In this document: positions 44,239 through 59,808 of the stretch, one piece after another | Layout of the letters: each line of letters opens with the position of its first letter | How positions within the stretch are numbered: position 1 is the stretch's first letter | Origin: a virus | Reading direction: 5' to 3' (one strand) | Virus record (IMG/VR): IMGVR_UViG_3300022602_002120 | Coordinates: 1 to 64,000 of that record | DNA length: 64,000 nt | The notes under the pieces: model-generated | Databases searched by the model: none | Told to the model about the DNA's origin: nothing | What the model saw: only the letters and a program-made list of their open reading frames with translations | Program-made: the position numbers and the translations under genes

Positions 44239-44661
44239 TTAGTTTGTAGCTACGTTAGCCATTGTAGATGTAGCTGCAATTTGAATATCATAAGCCCAAC
44301 GATTGCCATTCCAGTCGACTACCCAGTGATCTTGTAATTCTTTAGCATAGAATTGTGTACCTGTGTAGTCATAACATATAACACTTGCTTGACCGGCTGC
44401 TAGATTACCAATGTCTGTGTTACGTAGATACACTGTAGTGTTAGCGTTAAAACTTGAGCTGTCGGCTACATCAAATCTGTGTTTACTACGTTGTTTGTAT
44501 GCAAAACCGTGTGCATGTGTTGTGCCTGTTGAGTCTGCATATTGGAAATCGATTGTGTATACGCCTGTTACTGCGTATGGTGCACCAATTGTACCACCAA
44601 TGCCACTAGCATATCCGATATCGTTTGTACTGCCTGATGTTAATTTAATAGGACGTCCCAT
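44239..44661 (-). CDS. small virion protein with MGRPIK start
   Basis: This 140-residue protein is a shorter relative of the preceding 302-residue protein, sharing MGRPIK and the C-terminal KELQDHWVVDWNGNRW pattern. The middle contains TTHAHGFAYKQRSKHRFDV. It is expected at high copy and starts behind a long (79-nt) leader from the late promoter at 44741-44748 with an AAGGAG site. Confidence 0.6.
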   Translation of the reverse strand: MGRPIKLTSGSTNDIGYASGIGGTIGAPYAVTGVYTIDFQYADSTGTTHAHGFAYKQRSKHRFDVADSSSFNANTTVYLRNTDIGNLAAGQASVICYDYTGTQFYAKELQDHWVVDWNGNRWAYDIQIAATSTMANVATN

Positions 44662-44740
44662 TTGTTTTTCTCCTTATGGTTGGCGTTCTAGGCCTACGCG
44701 GTGGGTGCCGCATAAACTCCCCTTACGGAGCGAACACATA

Positions 44741-51234: not shown

Positions 51235-53838
51235 TTAATTAGTGTTTGCTGCTACTCTAGCTGTATGATCTACGTTTTGTTTCATTAGTCTAGCAATTTC
51301 TGCTAAATGAGCTGTAGCTTCTGCAGAACTAACATCACCGCGTTCCTCGTCGTCCCATTGTTTATATACTTTCTTAATAGGATCTGCTTCTGGACGTTTC
51401 ATAAACTCTTCTTGCAGTTGATTTACGTCAAAACCTTCAAAGCCTTTCATACGATCTTTAATCACACCCCAACGATCTTCATTCATGCTAACCTTTGGTT
51501 GATAATCGTTTTCTCCGAATCGCTGACCTTTCATTTCACGCATAGCATCAATAGCTGTTACCAGACTTTCAACTGTGGCATTACTCAATACGCTACTAGG
51601 TCCGTTAGTAGTAACCGGACTAGTTGCTGTTTGATTAAATCCTTGAAGTTGTTTAGCTATTTCAGCTTGCAATACCGGCGAGTTGACTACAGTTTTGTCC
51701 ATACCGTCATCGCCGGTTAGGTTTCCAGATTGTAACTTCATGGCATTTATTACATCAAGTAATTTACCAGTTGATACTGTACTTAATACACTACTCGGGC
51801 CACTAATAAGTTCAGGGCCGTTTTCACCAGCAATACCTAGTTTACCTACACCAATTGCACCACCTTTATCATGTTTAGCAACGGATTTCATGTAATCAGA
51901 TTGCCAATCACTAGGCTTATTAGCCTGTGCAGCATTTGCATTTTGTGTAGCAGCAAAATCTCTTATACGTTTTTCATATTCTGCTTGCGTTTCATTTGGT
52001 TGTTTTAAGAACGCTGTACTTGATGCTCCTACTCCTTCGGCTTTATTTTCGCCTGTAGCTACTTGTGTCATAGCCGCAGTTCTATTTTCTTTTGCGATCC
52101 CAGGAGTATGAGTTTTAATACCAAGATCAGCAAGCATATCCTGTACTTGGCTTAACATTGCTTTGCTTACTTCGGCAAATTTTGCTATAGCAGGTGTTAA
52201 TTCTTGTTGAAGTGCTTTTTTCAAATCTTGCGCAGCTTCTTCTGCGCCTGTTACACTCTTAGTTAGATCATCATTTGCATCTTTTTGTGTTACTCCAGCC
52301 TCTGCTCCATCTACAGCAGCTTTTGTATATTGATTGTTGGCATCAATTTGTTTAGACATTGATGCAGAAAGATCTTTTATAGCACCATCAGCAAAATATC
52401 CAGCACGAGCCAATCCTTGGTTAGAGAGAATAGATTTATTAATCGTTTCACCGTACTTGGCATTTAAATCTGCACCTTTTTTGTAAGTTAATGTATTACT
52501 TTCCCATGCTGCATATAATTCACTGGCTTTATCTTTAGCACCTCTTACTTGTGCTTCATACATTGCACCTTCTTCGTTAATAACTGCGCCATGTGATGCA
52601 ACACGATCTTTGAAATTTTTCAGCTCAAGATCTGTCATACTTGTCATAGCCTGCTGAATAGCAGCTTGTTGTTCAGGTGATTTTTTAGCCAATTCCTGTC
52701 TAAATATTAGTTCTTTAGATGCTTGTTCAGCAACTTCCATTTTCTTTTTAGCATCTTCACCTGTAATACTAGCAATTAAACGTAGATTTTCTGCATATTT
52801 TTGTGTAGCATCTTGCACATTCTTATCAGTAACTGTTTTACCAGTGATACGCATCTGTTTAGTAACATCGGCCATTAGACCTACTTGTTCTTCAAACCCG
52901 TAACCTAATTTTAATAGCTGTTCTTGTGCGCCCGATTCTTTTAGTGCCTTACCGACACGACCTAACATCTTAGTGCCTTCAGTTACACTAATGCCAGCTG
53001 ATGCAATCTTTTCACTGCTGGCTTTAACAACATTTGACATTTGCTCAATAGTTAAACCGGCATCTCCTGCGGCATTGCGCATACCAGTCATGCCATCAGT
53101 AAACAGAGCCCCGCTAGCCGACATTTGATTAAATGCTTTGTATGTTTTTTCTACTTCTTTGCTTAAGATCTCAACACCAAACTTAGCTAATTTAGTCATT
53201 GACTCTGAACTAGCGTCTAGTGCTGATCCGAGTATTTTTGCCGCGCCGCCGACTATAAATCCAAGTCCTTCAGTTTCGACTCCTGCAGCCATAGCTACAT
53301 CACCAAAGGTACTTAATAGCTTACCAGCGCCTTTAGCCGCAGATCCTGCCATGTCAATGCCTGCGGTCATCAGATCTGTAGATAATTGTGTTCCGCTAGC
53401 ATCGTCTTGAAGATTTTTTACAAATTGTGCTGTACCTTGAGCAGCTCGACCTAGTATGTCTTTAGTTGCTTTACTAGTTGCATCTGCATATTTCTTAGTG
53501 GCTTCTTCAGCCATTTTAGTAGCAGCGGTCTTGGCTAACTCTGCTTTCATTGATTTCTTAACCGCTATTTCAGCCGCATCAGTAGTTTCATCTAGATCTT
53601 CAATAGAATCATTGAGTTCATCAATTTTCTTTTTTAGGTCGTCATAGGTGGCTTTTTGCTTTTTAGCGTCTTTGGTTAACTTGTCAATTTCTTTTTGGAA
53701 TTTTTCAGCAGATTTTCCAGACTTTTCGTAGATATCGTTTAAGTCCTTGCTGTTTGCGCCAAATCGTTCTAGGAATTCAGCAAACGCTCTTAATTGTTCT
53801 TCATTCATGCTTTTATAGACCTTGGTTTTAGCTACCAT
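51235..53838 (-). CDS. tail tape-measure protein
   Basis: This 867-residue protein is long and helical, with an N-terminal coiled coil (KDLNDIYEKSGKSAEKFQKE), several Ala/Gly-rich hydrophobic stretches (residues about 160-215), and a C-terminal block AGENGPELISGPSSVL of the kind ending many tape-measure proteins. A second PSSVL block lies further on. It sets tail length, in T4 by gp29. The ATG at 53838 is preferred over a TTG at 53862 that coincides with the promoter. It is divergent from gp26 and so is next to its likely chaperone. Confidence 0.75.
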   Translation of the reverse strand: MVAKTKVYKSMNEEQLRAFAEFLERFGANSKDLNDIYEKSGKSAEKFQKEIDKLTKDAKKQKATYDDLKKKIDELNDSIEDLDETTDAAEIAVKKSMKAELAKTAATKMAEEATKKYADATSKATKDILGRAAQGTAQFVKNLQDDASGTQLSTDLMTAGIDMAGSAAKGAGKLLSTFGDVAMAAGVETEGLGFIVGGAAKILGSALDASSESMTKLAKFGVEILSKEVEKTYKAFNQMSASGALFTDGMTGMRNAAGDAGLTIEQMSNVVKASSEKIASAGISVTEGTKMLGRVGKALKESGAQEQLLKLGYGFEEQVGLMADVTKQMRITGKTVTDKNVQDATQKYAENLRLIASITGEDAKKKMEVAEQASKELIFRQELAKKSPEQQAAIQQAMTSMTDLELKNFKDRVASHGAVINEEGAMYEAQVRGAKDKASELYAAWESNTLTYKKGADLNAKYGETINKSILSNQGLARAGYFADGAIKDLSASMSKQIDANNQYTKAAVDGAEAGVTQKDANDDLTKSVTGAEEAAQDLKKALQQELTPAIAKFAEVSKAMLSQVQDMLADLGIKTHTPGIAKENRTAAMTQVATGENKAEGVGASSTAFLKQPNETQAEYEKRIRDFAATQNANAAQANKPSDWQSDYMKSVAKHDKGGAIGVGKLGIAGENGPELISGPSSVLSTVSTGKLLDVINAMKLQSGNLTGDDGMDKTVVNSPVLQAEIAKQLQGFNQTATSPVTTNGPSSVLSNATVESLVTAIDAMREMKGQRFGENDYQPKVSMNEDRWGVIKDRMKGFEGFDVNQLQEEFMKRPEADPIKKVYKQWDDEERGDVSSAEATAHLAEIARLMKQNVDHTARVAANTN

Positions 53839-53883: not shown

Positions 53884-54750
53884 ATGAGTCAAACTCCATC
53901 GTTTAATCAAGCTAACCCATTAGCTAGACACTTTAGACAACCAGTGATCTACACTAAACTACCTAGTCGCGGTCAGTTTTGGCCAGAAGGTAGTATAGAC
54001 ATCCCTGTTACAGGTGAAATTCCTATTCTAGCAATGAGTACTAAAGACGAAGTTATTCTACGCACACCAGATGCACTGTTAAACGGGCAAGGTGTTATTG
54101 ATGTTATTCAAAGTTGCTGTCCAACTATTAAGAACGCATGGGAAACTCCTAGTATTGACGTAGACAGCATTATTATCAGTATTCGTATTGCTAGTTATGG
54201 TAATAATATGGAGTTTACCAGCACTTGCCCACACTGTAATACCCAGCATGACTATAGCGTTGATCTAGGAGTAGTTCTACAGGGCATCGAAACACCTAAC
54301 TACAGTAGAGGTGTTGACGTAGATGGTCTTAAAATTAAACTACGTCCGCAACCATACTTTAGTCTTAACAAAACTAACATCATTGCTTTTGAAGAACAGC
54401 AATTGTTACGATCACTACAGATGATTGAAGATAATTCAGACGAAGCACAGGCTAAATTTAATGCACAGCTGAATAAACTAATCGATCTTAACATTATGAT
54501 CACTGCCGACAGTACAGAAAGCATTACCACAGAAGACGGACAACTAGTAACTGATCGTAGTTTTATCAAAGAGTTCTACACAAACTGTGATAATAAAACA
54601 GTTAAAGCGGTTAAAGCTCGTTTAGATGAATATAACAAACAAGCCAACATTAAACCATTTAATGTTATCTGTAGCGAAGAAGACTGCGCTAAGCCATTTG
54701 ATATTGATATTATATTCGATTTTGCAAGTTTTTTCGGAAAAGGCTCTTAA
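53884..54750 (+). CDS. 26: gp26-like tail/baseplate assembly protein, upstream frame of a frameshift pair
   Basis: This 288-residue protein has the T4 baseplate protein (gp26) pattern: KLPSRGQFWPEGSID, TGEIPILAMSTKDEVIL, RTPDALLNGQGVIDVIQSC and PTIKNAWETPSID, then a zinc-ribbon-like pair (CPHC and CSEEDC). The ATG at 53884 has an AGGAAA site. Near its end the frame contains T TTT TTC at 54729-54735. A -1 slip there leads into the overlapping ORF that ends at 54965. The start and stop layout around the tape-measure gene recalls the G/GT tail assembly chaperones of other phages. Confidence 0.78.
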   Translation: MSQTPSFNQANPLARHFRQPVIYTKLPSRGQFWPEGSIDIPVTGEIPILAMSTKDEVILRTPDALLNGQGVIDVIQSCCPTIKNAWETPSIDVDSIIISIRIASYGNNMEFTSTCPHCNTQHDYSVDLGVVLQGIETPNYSRGVDVDGLKIKLRPQPYFSLNKTNIIAFEEQQLLRSLQMIEDNSDEAQAKFNAQLNKLIDLNIMITADSTESITTEDGQLVTDRSFIKEFYTNCDNKTVKAVKARLDEYNKQANIKPFNVICSEEDCAKPFDIDIIFDFASFFGKGS

Positions 54751-54811
54751 CTCTAGATAACGCCAGCGTCGTGTCCTTACTCGAAGGATATGACAAAGAA
54801 GTAAGAGCCTT
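54729..54811 (+). other. probable programmed -1 ribosomal frameshift signal
   Basis: The heptamer T TTT TTC lies in the gp26 frame exactly as X XXY YYZ. Four nt later a 10-base sequence (AAGGCTCTTA, 54740-54749) is perfectly complementary to 54802-54811 (TAAGAGCCTT), a stem of the spacing that stalls ribosomes. The -1 frame is open from 54708 to 54965. The gp26 stop (54748-54750) lies at the base of the stem. Confidence 0.72.
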
Positions 54812-54965
54812 AAAAGATGATGCGTTACGTATGTGTTGGTATATGCGTGGTGGGTTAAGTTATGATGATGCTATGTTGCTAAGTCAAACAGAAAAAGAAA
54901 TTATCAATAAGATAGTTAAAGATAATTTAGAAACTACCCAAAAGAGTCATTTGCCTTTCTTTTAA
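54735..54965 (+). CDS. gp51-like C-terminal extension made by frameshift
   Basis: The region encodes 76 residues in the -1 frame relative to gp26, giving a fusion of about 360 residues. The first codons (CGG AAA AGG CTC TTA ACT) have no start codon or ribosome site. The only start of its own is a GTG at 54771 (MSLLEGYDKEVRALKDDAL). The sequence is helical and charged and ends HLPFF. The position after gp26 matches the short gp51 (baseplate hub) genes of marine T4-like phages. Confidence 0.65.
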   Translation, partial: RKRLLTLDNASVVSLLEGYDKEVRALKDDALRMCWYMRGGLSYDDAMLLSQTEKEIINKIVKDNLETTQKSHLPFF

Positions 54966-55512
54966 TAAAAGTCATTATATTACATACAAGAGTAGTTGTG
55001 TGGCATATATTCTAGACTAATCCATTTGTGTAGTATAATTCGTAATATATTCCATACAAGAAAGATGTCTCTGACATCTGCGTTATCGCTATCGCTCAAC
55101 GCTTTTTCTTCTAATCTAAATTACGTTAGTTATTTTGAATTACTGTACTGCTCTTAAACGTTATCATCCAGATTTGGTCATACTTCACCTATCCGAGGCA
55201 AAGTATAAGTCGCATCATCCGAGTTGACAGTCATACTAACTAAAAGAGATTGTTAATCAATAACACGGAGGCGGTCAGCCGGTACCCCCTACTCTAGCTT
55301 CTTCTGACGGGTGCTGTATAGCCATAGTTAGCTAACTATACTAGTCACGTGAGTTGTATTGCTTTTTCTTCAGAGCTCACATCATTTGGCGTTTAGGCCT
55401 AATTGATCGTCGGTGCCATCCAGTGTGTAGTCTACTCTACACGTTCCAAGTGCGGCCATTACGCGAGCACCATCTCCTCTGGATACAGAACTTAATCTGC
55501 AATAGGGCTAAT
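54966..55512. other. 547-base non-coding island with strong secondary structure
   Basis: No significant ORF, tRNA or familiar RNA motif is seen, but several perfect inverted repeats occur: AGATGTC-TCT-GACATCT (55063-55079), a 16-bp palindrome (55324-55339), and GTGTAG/CTACAC (55425-55442). Two further pairs, GGTGC/GCACC (55412-55416 with 55467-55471) and ATCCAG/CTGGAT (55418-55423 with 55479-55484), cross and would form a pseudoknot. A TATAAT lies at 55034. The minus strand has four short ATG-started frames (25, 16, 18 and 5 codons). The region is richer in GC than its surroundings and lies between convergent genes next to a GIY-YIG endonuclease. A structured RNA, an origin, or an intron remnant are open options. 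Confidence 0.6.
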
Positions 55513-55950
55513 TTACTTCTTTATTACTAGATCTTTTACTGAATTCTTGCCAAGTTTAATTTGTATAATGCCGTTGTAGTTGTTTTCACGAAGTAATACA
55601 TGTTCTGTGAATTGGTAGTAGGCCTCTAAGTAGTTTGTTTCGCCTCTACTGTTACATAAATGAATTATGTCACGAGTAAAGTTTTCTTTGCCATGTGTGT
55701 CAATATCTGCTTGTAGTCGCGGACTAGATCCCCAGTAGGTCTTCCAATCTGTTTCTACAACTTCACGACGTTTGTTTTTCTTGCCTTTTAGAGGTGGTCT
55801 CTTTTTGATAGTAGTGAAATATTTGCGGCCAACATAATCGTGACCATTTATATTATTTGTAATTCTGTAGATAAAACCATAATAAGTGCCGATATCCTCG
55901 GATTCAAATGCTACACCGTTATAAATCCAAGGATAATCGTATGATGCCAT
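55513..55950 (-). CDS. GIY-YIG homing endonuclease
   Basis: This 145-residue protein has the GIY-YIG core: YYGFIYRITN, then HDYVGRKYF, a WKTYWGSSPRL block and a catalytic Glu within NYLEAYYQF. The pattern is that of freestanding phage GIY-YIG nucleases (T4 Seg-like). There is no recognised DNA-binding tail; the C-terminus is short and basic. It borders the non-coding island on its 3' side, a usual sign that the island marks or contains the target or a former intron. Confidence 0.85.
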   Translation of the reverse strand: MASYDYPWIYNGVAFESEDIGTYYGFIYRITNNINGHDYVGRKYFTTIKKRPPLKGKKNKRREVVETDWKTYWGSSPRLQADIDTHGKENFTRDIIHLCNSRGETNYLEAYYQFTEHVLLRENNYNGIIQIKLGKNSVKDLVIKK

Positions 55951-56166: not shown

Positions 56167-57183
56167 TTACCATTCTGTTGCGTACTGCTGATTTACCACT
56201 GATATATTACATTTAGTCCTACATTCGGTCCTGGAGAAAATTTCAAACTCTTCGCTCCAATACTGGTCATTTAGGACCTCATTTAATGATCTTTGATTCA
56301 GATCAAACTGGTTCTTACTTACATCTAACCACTCGTTGTTATGTGAATATCTATTTGCTACCCAACAACAAGGAAATAAATGTCCTTGACTGTTGATAAA
56401 CAAACCCTTATTACCGATTCCACATAACGGAGTTACTTCGCCAAACGTTTCTGCTTGGTTATATAATCTTAAATTAGTTTTTGCACCTACTGTACTTTCT
56501 TTACGTTCATTGAATTGTGTAAAAATCCGTTGGAATCTGTAGTTAGTACTAATTAAGTTATCCTTGGGCTGTAATTGGTCGCTTTCTGGGTATATACTAT
56601 ATACTTTATTAAACTTTGTACTTAACGTCAACTGAAATTGATCAAACCCTAGTTCTTTGGCCAACAATTTCATATCATCTAATTTATCTTCGTTAAATTT
56701 AAATGCAATAGCATCCCAGGTCATATAAACATGACTGCTATTGCGTAAGGTAGTAACGCCTTGAATGATACTCGACCAATTGCTGTTTATACGATATTGT
56801 TCGTTACTGCCTTGATCCCATCCATCCAAACTAAAGTGAATATGATCATTATGATCTAATGCTTGCCCTAGTCTAGCCCACCAGTCAACATTTTTATAGC
56901 TACCGTTGGTAACAATAACAAATTTCACTGGTTTAACACTTTTAATATATTCGATCACGTCTATTAAGCTATGTGCATATATAGGATCACCATCGTCGCC
57001 ACAAAACGTAATCTTTTCTACGTTGTCTTGTATAAATTCTGGAGTAAAATTCTTCTTAAAGAAATTTAAACTTAATTCTGTGTTTACTAAGGTGTCGGGA
57101 ACTTCTGTGCGAGCACAGCGCGGACATTTTAATGTACACTTACTGGATATTTCGATATGCCAATGCCACGTTGCTAATTTCAA
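56167..57183 (-). CDS. radical SAM/SPASM-like protein
   Basis: This 338-residue protein has the radical SAM motif CTLKCPRC near the N-terminus (HIEISSKCTLKCPRC) and later VIVTNGSYKN and HFSLDGW of the TIM barrel. A C-terminal cysteine set (LCGIGNKGLF, LFPCCW, ECRTKCN) is like that of auxiliary-cluster SPASM domains. It is a close relative of the next gene. Start overlaps that gene's stop by 4 nt (ATGA-type). Substrate unknown. Confidence 0.85.
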   Translation of the reverse strand: MKLATWHWHIEISSKCTLKCPRCARTEVPDTLVNTELSLNFFKKNFTPEFIQDNVEKITFCGDDGDPIYAHSLIDVIEYIKSVKPVKFVIVTNGSYKNVDWWARLGQALDHNDHIHFSLDGWDQGSNEQYRINSNWSSIIQGVTTLRNSSHVYMTWDAIAFKFNEDKLDDMKLLAKELGFDQFQLTLSTKFNKVYSIYPESDQLQPKDNLISTNYRFQRIFTQFNERKESTVGAKTNLRLYNQAETFGEVTPLCGIGNKGLFINSQGHLFPCCWVANRYSHNNEWLDVSKNQFDLNQRSLNEVLNDQYWSEEFEIFSRTECRTKCNISVVNQQYATEW

Positions 57184-58049
57184 AATTCGACCTCACGTTG
57201 CCATTGGTTTGAGTAACTTGTACCATTTAAGTTTTTTGTACAGGTTGCAACACAAGTTGCATTAGGTGATATCGAATCCCAGGATTCTTGCACAATGTTA
57301 AAATAGTCAATAGTGTGACTAGTATTGCCCAACCAGCAACACGGATACACTATACCCTTGGTAGAAATATATAGACTTTGTTCTTTAAGAGCAACACAAT
57401 CAATAGTTCCGATATTTACACTAGGATTTTTCCATCCGGTAGGGGGATTTAAAAAAGATATAGGGTGATTAGTATGCCGACGACTAACTTTAGCTCGAAA
57501 CCATTTAAATCCTAATTCTTTTGCTAATGTTTGTGCTTGATCTACCTGATGTTGATTATGTTCAAATACTAACATTTCCCAGTGAGCTCTACCGCCGGCG
57601 GCAATAAATGCCTGCGCATTTTCTATAACCTTATCCCAACCAACATTTACTCTGTATATGTGATTGGTATCGTTTAATCCGTCGATACTAAAAATTACAT
57701 AATCTTTCTGATAAGATAACATTGCACCTAAAGAACTCCACCAAGTAGTAGACCGTAGACCTCCATTAGTATTCATACCTAATGTTATTGTGGGATTTAA
57801 TTTACGAAAATAGCTATAAATTTCTAAGGTGTGCTTGCCTGCGGCAGGATCGCCATAATTTCCACACATATACATCTTGTCTAATGCTTTGATAGTATCT
57901 TCTGAAATAGCATCTGCTATATTATCTACAGTTAAATGGTGCAGCACAGACTTATCAAACGTAGGATCAGTTTCTCTGCTACATTGCGGACATGCAGCAT
58001 TACAAGCATCTGTAGGTTCTACGTGTAATATTTTAGGTAACATCAACAT
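57180..58049 (-). CDS. radical SAM/SPASM-like protein (paralogue)
   Basis: This 289-residue protein has CNAACPQC in the context EPTDACNAACPQC, then GLNDTNHIYRVN and the LYISTKGIVYPCCW auxiliary-cluster segment, followed by CVATC. It shares layout with the downstream radical SAM protein and is probably a tandem duplicate. The start is uncertain: ATG at 58049 or 58043, both inside the end of gp46. The pair lies between gp46 and the Hc1-like gene. Confidence 0.85.
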   Translation of the reverse strand: MLMLPKILHVEPTDACNAACPQCSRETDPTFDKSVLHHLTVDNIADAISEDTIKALDKMYMCGNYGDPAAGKHTLEIYSYFRKLNPTITLGMNTNGGLRSTTWWSSLGAMLSYQKDYVIFSIDGLNDTNHIYRVNVGWDKVIENAQAFIAAGGRAHWEMLVFEHNQHQVDQAQTLAKELGFKWFRAKVSRRHTNHPISFLNPPTGWKNPSVNIGTIDCVALKEQSLYISTKGIVYPCCWLGNTSHTIDYFNIVQESWDSISPNATCVATCTKNLNGTSYSNQWQREVEF

Positions 58050-59808
58050 CAGTATTATATGTAGTAAATCCATTCTCTTTTACTACTGTTAAAATATTGT
58101 TTACACGACCCGCTAGTTCATCTTTATGCGATACTAACCAAATAGATTTGTTATTCTCTCTGGTCATTTTCTTAAGGATAGCAAGAGCATTTTCTACACC
58201 CGACGTATCCATACCGCTGTCAACAAGTTCGTCGATAAACAATAAGTTAATTGGTTGATATAAACTTTCCCACACATCACGGAATGCCCATGATAAGCTA
58301 AGGATAAGTCTATTGCGCTCTCCACGGCTTAAGTTATCAAAATCTAACTCTCTGCCTAATTCTTCAATTTGTACACTTAGATCATTTAAGAATTTAACCT
58401 GATGTGGTAATCCAATTTTATCTAAGTAGTGGCTTAAGCGAGCATTTAAATAGCTTAAGTTCTGATCAATAATGCGTTTACGAATATAACTGTCTTTATT
58501 AGTTAGTAATTTATGTAGGAACTCTTGGTGTTCTTTAATACGTACTAGTTCATTCATATTAGTATAATCAATTTCAGCAAGTGCTGTAGTGCGCATTTCA
58601 GCTATCTGTTCTGTATAAGGATCAGTTTCTGCTTGCTTACTTATTAATTGTGTTTGTAAACTAGCCACAGTACTACGATGATGGATAGCATCTTCTTCTT
58701 TATCATAGTAAACTTTAGGTGGCGCACCTAATTCTCCTAATGCTGATTTGGCATCGCCTAGGTCTAATAGTAATTTCTCAGCGGTACTATAAGCTAAAGC
58801 TGACTCCTCTAATGATGCTTGTTTAGTTGCTAATACTTCTTCATGCTTGCTATCGTGTAAGTCTTGACCGCAAGCATAACATTTGTGATTGTTTAAGTCG
58901 GCAATTTCTTTGTCTAATTTTTTAATAGTTTTTTGCTCGCGATCCATATCGTTGCTAGCACGCTGTAAAGCTGTGTTAAGGTCTGTTAGGTCTCTACGCT
59001 TTTGATTGTATGCTGTGAGTTTTTTGTGAGCAGCAATTTCAGCGTCAATGTCGATGTGGGATAATTCTTCAATGGCAGCTACTAGCTTTGACACATCCTC
59101 AATATGTTTAGTAGTCCACATAGTTTGGCGACGTTCTAAGCTAACAATCTGTTCTTCGATACGCTTATTAGCATCAGTAATTGCTTTGATGTTAAATTCT
59201 TCTTGAGTAATCGCATCTCTGGTTGCTTTACTTTGCTCTTTAAGTGCTTCTGCTTTTTCACTTAATAGAGTAATACCAAGTAATTGTTCAATAATAGCAC
59301 GCTGATCATTCGCCTTAAGACTTAAAAACGGTTCTGTGTAGGTGTTAAGTGCAACAATGTGCTTGAACATGTCATGAGACATGCCTAGCAAGCGTTCAAT
59401 TTCGGCTTGTGTTTCTCGACTGTCACCTTGACTGTTATCATCTTTAGCTTCTTGTTCGATATCTCCAATATAAAACTTCATTACATTATGTTTACGACCG
59501 CGCTCAATCTTATAGTCGACCCCATTTACTTCAAAATCAATAGTAACTAACATGTTCTTAGCGTTAGTTTTATTGATCAAGTTATCTTTACGAATATTAG
59601 TTAGAGCATTGCCGTATAAGGCATAACTTAATGCGTTAATGATAGTAGTTTTACCTGTACCATTACGTGCTCCGCTGTCATCACCACCTAAGTCAATATT
59701 CTCGCCTAGGACTAAGGTCAAGTCCTTGCGATCAAAGTTGACGGCCTGCGTAGCATTACCCACACTCATAAAGTTTTTAACTGTAAGATATTTGATACGG
59801 AAACTCAT
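58033..59808 (-). CDS. 46: recombination nuclease subunit gp46 (Rad50/SbcC-like)
   Basis: This 591-residue protein is an SMC-type ATPase. Walker A is GARNGTGKTTIINAL, the coiled-coil centre has a zinc hook (CYACGQ), and the head has the ABC signature LSRGERNRLILS and Walker B LLFIDELVDSG. With gp47 it processes DNA ends for recombination-dependent replication. T4 gp46 is 560 residues. Its start overlaps gp47 by 4 nt, as in other T4-like phages. Confidence 0.95.
   Translation of the reverse strand: MSFRIKYLTVKNFMSVGNATQAVNFDRKDLTLVLGENIDLGGDDSGARNGTGKTTIINALSYALYGNALTNIRKDNLINKTNAKNMLVTIDFEVNGVDYKIERGRKHNVMKFYIGDIEQEAKDDNSQGDSRETQAEIERLLGMSHDMFKHIVALNTYTEPFLSLKANDQRAIIEQLLGITLLSEKAEALKEQSKATRDAITQEEFNIKAITDANKRIEEQIVSLERRQTMWTTKHIEDVSKLVAAIEELSHIDIDAEIAAHKKLTAYNQKRRDLTDLNTALQRASNDMDREQKTIKKLDKEIADLNNHKCYACGQDLHDSKHEEVLATKQASLEESALAYSTAEKLLLDLGDAKSALGELGAPPKVYYDKEEDAIHHRSTVASLQTQLISKQAETDPYTEQIAEMRTTALAEIDYTNMNELVRIKEHQEFLHKLLTNKDSYIRKRIIDQNLSYLNARLSHYLDKIGLPHQVKFLNDLSVQIEELGRELDFDNLSRGERNRLILSLSWAFRDVWESLYQPINLLFIDELVDSGMDTSGVENALAILKKMTRENNKSIWLVSHKDELAGRVNNILTVVKENGFTTYNTDVDVT

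Follow-up and report, generated by a model that had tools for sequence, protein, structure and literature searches.

The stretch of DNA analysed here (the window) comprises 64,000 nucleotides, positions 1 to 64,000 of the IMG/VR virus record IMGVR_UViG_3300022602_002120, which has 188,801 bases. The portal protein encoded in the window resembles gp20 of T4. Among isolates, the proteins most similar to the window gp26 are found in the jumbo phages Atu_ph07, Phosso, PA5oct and the RaK2/BF group. The gp26 gene is overlapped at its 3' end by a second reading frame and adjoins a long gene on the other strand. The features of this locus are as follows:

51235-53829, minus strand: probable tape-measure protein, a long protein of 864 aa (875 aa from TTG 53862) with a GENGPELI motif
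53884-54750, plus strand: gp26-like gene starting at ATG 53884, coding for the predicted short isoform (TAC-N) of 288 aa
54729-54735, plus strand: slippery heptamer T TTT TTC, in phase with gp26 and unchanged in relatives
54729-54965, plus strand: extension in the -1 frame (FFRKRLL...CWYMRGG...LPFF), the predicted C-terminal part of the long isoform, with its stop at 54963-54965 included
54740-54749, plus strand: 5' arm of the downstream stem, a perfect helix of 10 bp with covariation
54748-54750, plus strand: zero-frame stop codon of gp26 (TAA), read from the sequence
54768-54794, plus strand: inner hairpin within the loop of the stem, 11 bp in this phage, in both the MFE and the centroid structure
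54802-54811, plus strand: 3' arm of the downstream stem, partner of 54740-54749 with covariation, lying elsewhere in other subgroups

The window gp26 belongs to the T4_baseplate family, as it matched the Pfam model PF12322 with 58.0 bits (cut-off 24.5) and the baseplate hub family phrog_150 with an E value of 2e-17. The codons at the 3' end of the gene read ..AGT TTT TTC GGA AAA GGC TCT TAA, and the -1 frame has no stop from 54729 to 54962, across the gp26 stop. Both the heptamer, which is of the canonical -1 slippery type, and the open -1 frame had been reported in the first-pass annotation, which also expected a fusion of about 360 residues; a slip at the heptamer is predicted to give exactly 284 + 76 = 360 residues and a product that shares its N-terminal domain with the short form. 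The earliest start codon in the downstream ORF is the GTG at 54771, which lacks a Shine-Dalgarno-like sequence, in agreement with the earlier remark that a GTG was the only start signal there. The window ORFs of at least 100 codons were scanned for an XXXYYYZ heptamer within the last ~60 nt combined with an extension in the -1 frame by 50 codons or more, and gp26 was the only one of the 70 that had both.

Relatives were retrieved by gp26 protein patterns alone, leaving the junction unused, and five named phages were added. All 95 far-T4/jumbo loci with a readable junction, two of which are cut by a contig end, carried T TTT TTC in phase with gp26 together with an open -1 frame, so the heptamer was conserved in the comparison that had been proposed. 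It sits 10 to 40 nt upstream of the gp26 stop, and the -1 ORF has 73-79 codons in every complete locus. A downstream ORF out of the -1 phase, which had been regarded beforehand as a sign against frameshifting, did not occur in any of them. The zero-frame tail past the slip site was variable, with a stop after FF plus one residue, FFxxGS, FFxxGF and other endings, whereas the -1 product was kept across the loci as FFR.RLL...WYMRGG...LPFF. The heptamer was invariant in 88 distinct relatives despite two synonymous wobble positions in the gp26 frame. The codon preceding the two Phe codons always ended in T (log10 P about -24) and the first Phe codon was always TTT (log10 P about -11), values that were derived from how these genes use their codons, with loci treated as independent, and that overstate the surprise because kinship among the loci is ignored. 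The final C of the heptamer was left out of this count, because a near-invariant Arg (CGN) in the -1 frame also explains its constancy.

The extension itself was conserved as a protein, with a mean column identity of 61% and with FFR, W and MRG invariant. Modelled alone by AF2, it was predicted with high confidence to form a small all-helical domain (pLDDT 89.6); the model of the window gp26 had a pLDDT of 85.8. The extension was assigned to no family and had no significant fold match. The predicted fold of gp26 had no significant match among solved structures, and the HK97 tail-assembly chaperone 2ob9 ranked 27 with an E value of 4.4 and a TM score of 0.34 by target. A further search of solved structures with gp26 gave only designed proteins, with E values of ~0.02, and these were rejected. 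The extension was only weakly similar to the T4 gp51/cyanophage extension (hhalign P 0.005 and 0.07), and phrog_634 matched one of the 78 far-T4 extension members at an E value of 0.01 and did not match the extension of the window. Because the match is weak, we do not claim direct homology between the 75-aa extension and the C-terminus of T4 gp51.

A perfect stem of 10 bp beginning 4 nt after the heptamer had been noticed in the first-pass annotation and is indeed formed by 54740-54749 and 54802-54811, with a spacer of 4 nt. The region 54736-54830 folded at -28.1 kcal/mol, compared to -17.8 ± 2.9 for shuffled sequences (z -3.5). The inner hairpin at 54768-54794 is possibly specific to this phage, because it was missing from the consensus structure. 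Most far-T4 loci have a stem of 8-16 bp that begins at about +11/+13. The best perfect helix, with its 5' arm near the heptamer and a score of at least 17, was at or above this threshold in 92% of 87 distinct loci, compared to 14% of the controls in which the -1 codons had been shuffled; about 8% of the far-T4 loci stayed under it. The position of the 5' arm was constant in these 87 loci and the 3' arm lay mostly at +72 to +83, while in other subgroups the partner of this 5' position lay at about +42 to +63, +73 or +94 to +105.

RNAalifold alone returned only five consensus pairs, the inner ones, and for this reason the pairs of the 54740-54749/54802-54811 stem were counted separately in 58 distinct aligned rows. 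There, 87.9% of the cells were paired, compared to 22-58% for slid partners, and covariation, which had been suggested as a check on this stem, was found in 45 double-change cells, compared to 15.0 ± 3.0 in shuffles. Columns 18-77 changed between U-A (38) and C-G (19), and columns 21-74 between G-C (45) and A-U (12). The strongest pairs connect wobble bases of Leu codons in the 5' arm with second codon positions in the 3' arm ~55 nt away, and the latter distinguish Lys from Arg, and Val/Ile from Ser/Ala/Thr. Such a covariation of a Leu wobble base with a second codon position is not something that constraint at the protein level alone would produce. These loci offer extensive comparative material on a natural stimulator of -1 frameshifting, in which the helix has moved and the function has apparently been kept.

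The neighbour on the other strand is probably the tape-measure gene, and its counterparts in RaK2, BF and PA5oct have been annotated as virion structural or tape-measure-like proteins. A long tape-measure-like ORF adjoined gp26 divergently in 95 of the 95 far-T4 loci, so that the divergent abutment described earlier for the window applies to the whole group. Classical TAC genes are located just upstream of the tape-measure gene and in the same direction. The divergent orientation is a real difference that sets the far-T4 loci apart from the classical TAC operons.

The gene family, the heptamer, the open -1 phase, purifying conservation and the covarying stem are established. Programmed -1 frameshifting explains these sequence data far better than any alternative, in support of the interpretation first given to the locus, and we assign a probability of roughly 0.88 to the reading that the frameshift makes a short and a long isoform of a tail-assembly chaperone. 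From the sequence we infer slippage of the ribosome and a ratio of the two products, as follows. Most ribosomes would terminate at the gp26 stop and release the short form of 288 aa. A minority would slip back one base at T TTT TTC, aided by the stem-loop 4-6 nt downstream, continue past the stop in frame -1 and yield a product of 360 aa, the last ~75 residues of which would be a helical domain. The short and long forms would jointly chaperone the tape-measure protein during tail building. A TAC role of the gp26 pair is most likely in view of its family, its neighbourhood and the analogy with lambda, where the short and long forms G and GT act as the tail-assembly chaperone and are taken as the analogue of the far-T4 pair. 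In T4, gp26 as the short form and gp51 as the long form most likely have the same role, as products of two genes.

Other explanations of the locus have to be weighed against this one. Gene decay or an error in the sequence, for which nothing speaks beyond the view from one window, was ruled out by the same phase change in 95 contigs and isolate genomes, and its probability is negligible. An independent downstream gene, with translation beginning at GTG 54771 or coupled to termination at the gp26 stop and with the T-run being incidental, is very unlikely. The ORF has been annotated as separate in Phosso, BF and Atu_ph07, and half of the cyanophage-type loci have an ATG five codons past the slip site, so that a start of its own is possible there. 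However, conservation of the far-T4 protein (FFR.RLL) begins before any start codon that the loci have in common, and the start codons differ among loci in both position and kind, with an SD-like 4-mer before a start within 25 codons in only 10 of 87 loci. The good independent start that the first-pass annotation would have held against the frameshift was thus not encountered, and translation from GTG 54771 was rejected because a conserved start is lacking. A separate gene would also leave the invariant wobble positions of the heptamer and the stem unexplained.

Poly-T/A runs can cause slippage of the polymerase, and transcriptional slippage on the T6 run would supply -1 mRNAs and an identical product. 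Exactly six T followed by C in 175 far-T4 and cyanophage-type loci, however, make such an origin highly improbable, and both the stem downstream and the phasing to P-site and A-site codons suit slippage of the ribosome. A further reading accepts the frameshift and assigns its products to the baseplate hub, as structural or assembly factors that have no chaperone role for the tape measure. This agrees with the historic annotation of T4, in which gp26 is a hub component or chaperone and gp51 an essential assembly catalyst (PMC3004832), with the divergent position of the gene and with the insignificant match to the HK97 TAC fold. We nevertheless consider it unlikely, since a tape-measure-like gene is always alongside (95/95 loci), the logic of a short and long pair argues for chaperones, and TAC genes of T4-like phages have been identified in print (Vladimirov et al. 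2022, as cited in PMC10274946 and PMC12846349).

For lambda (G/GT) and its relatives, the frameshift that makes the tail-assembly chaperone was reportedly described by Xu, Hendrix and Duda in 2004. The far-T4 genes share with it a slip site shortly before the end of a short ORF adjoining the tape-measure gene and a -1 extension without a start of its own, and a major short and a minor long product would be expected. They differ from lambda in the T TTT TTC site, the PF12322 family, the divergent gene and the conserved stem with a long loop. Vladimirov et al. are said to have named the chaperone genes of T4-like phages in 2022. The first-pass annotation knew of no description of such a frameshift in T4-like phages, but the general idea was already known: as cited from Vladimirov et al. 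2022, poly-T slip signals occur in T4-like TAC-N genes (PMC12846349), and a short gene plus a long fused gene replace frameshifting in some T4-like phages (PMC10274946). The TAC gene of phage Adele, from the Vandenendeviridae/Andersonviridae (PMC12846349), likewise has a -1 frameshift at a poly-T site, and differs in its GTTTTT motif, its phage family and its position upstream of the tape measure. In the literature, with Vladimirov et al. 2022 represented by the papers citing it, we found no account of the far-T4/jumbo clade, of its covarying stem or of its orphan C-terminal domain.

Other phages share this arrangement, which is widespread among T4-like phages with the exception of the T4 group itself. 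KVP40, S-PM2, P-SSM2, HTVC008M and phiM12 have one PF12322 gene and, after it, an overlapping ORF in the -1 frame that begins with FF(R), and the heptamer at the junction is TTTTTTC in KVP40 and TTTTTTT in HTVC008M and phiM12. Their second ORF belongs to phrog_634, which is named after T4 gp51, and is annotated as 'baseplate hub assembly catalyst'. They are unlike the far-T4 loci in that the extension has ~60-68 aa and belongs to another sequence family, the downstream hairpins are tighter and an ATG often follows soon after the slip site. TTTTTTC was present in 80 of 80 further cyanophage-type loci, and their downstream hairpins exceeded the threshold in 74% of 54 distinct loci, compared to 15% of the controls. 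Among phage records, 523 had KVP40-type extensions and 1160 had C-termini of the T4-gp51 type.

The same signal was absent from the junctions of T4, RM378, PAU and Vi01. T4 has two separate divergent genes without a slip site, 26 (208 aa) and 51 (249 aa), whose products are both in PF12322 like the window gp26. T4 gp26 ends in ...KEFFELL in the place of the ...SFF of the frameshifting genes, and gp51 carries an additional long C-terminus that can be aligned with the -1 extensions of KVP40 and the cyanophages. In the Rhodothermus phage RM378 and the Sphingomonas phage PAU, the PF12322 gene is followed by an ORF in +1 phase, in RM378 after CTTTTTTTGG, so that these two phages may use recoding or coupling of another kind. 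The Salmonella phage Vi01 has a next ORF in -1 phase with a weak phrog_634 match, and its junction (GAA ATT TTC ATT TAA) has no clean heptamer.

The deepest split of the unrooted tree had frameshift carriers on either side, and gp26 and gp51 of T4 were long branches on the KVP40/cyanophage side. As far as a tree with long branches and a missing root can be read, frameshifting is likely the older state and the duplication in the T4 group the derived one. We lean towards a scheme in which a single frameshifting gene was ancestral and was later duplicated in the T4 group into 26 and 51, while the far-T4/jumbo phages have their own unclassified RNA stimulator, with a fixed 5' arm and a moved 3' arm, and an orphan C-terminal domain, all divergent from the tape measure. 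The frameshift reading explains the long obscure T4 gp26 and gp51 as a pair that T4 encodes in two genes and frameshifting phages in one, and it corrects the annotation of many T4-like genomes, in which the second half is called a separate hypothetical protein or 'baseplate hub assembly catalyst'.

Several other elements were observed in the window. Directly downstream of the frameshift gene, a conserved non-coding stretch of ~450 nt lies on the minus strand (55060-55512), with 71-77% identity over most of its length in ~12 loci and partial conservation in ~15 more. RNAalifold on the minus strand of 11 loci gave -88.3 kcal/mol and 90 pairs, 33 of which had compensatory changes, and the stretch ends in a hairpin followed by T's, like a terminator. 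It matched no Rfam family and contained no tRNA; it looks like an undescribed structured RNA of phages and is a candidate for a new large one. Directly upstream of this putative RNA, a small GIY-YIG-like ORF occupies 55513-55950 on the minus strand; its best PHROG is labelled 'NAD synthetase' and the next matches are homing endonucleases. The Rfam freshwater-2 RNA (RF02980) was detected at 44659-44732 on the minus strand with 52.4 bits, exceeding the gathering score. At 56167-58073, also on the minus strand, there are two adjoining ORFs that appear radical SAM / SPASM-like from their translations (CNAACPQC, CTLKCPRC).
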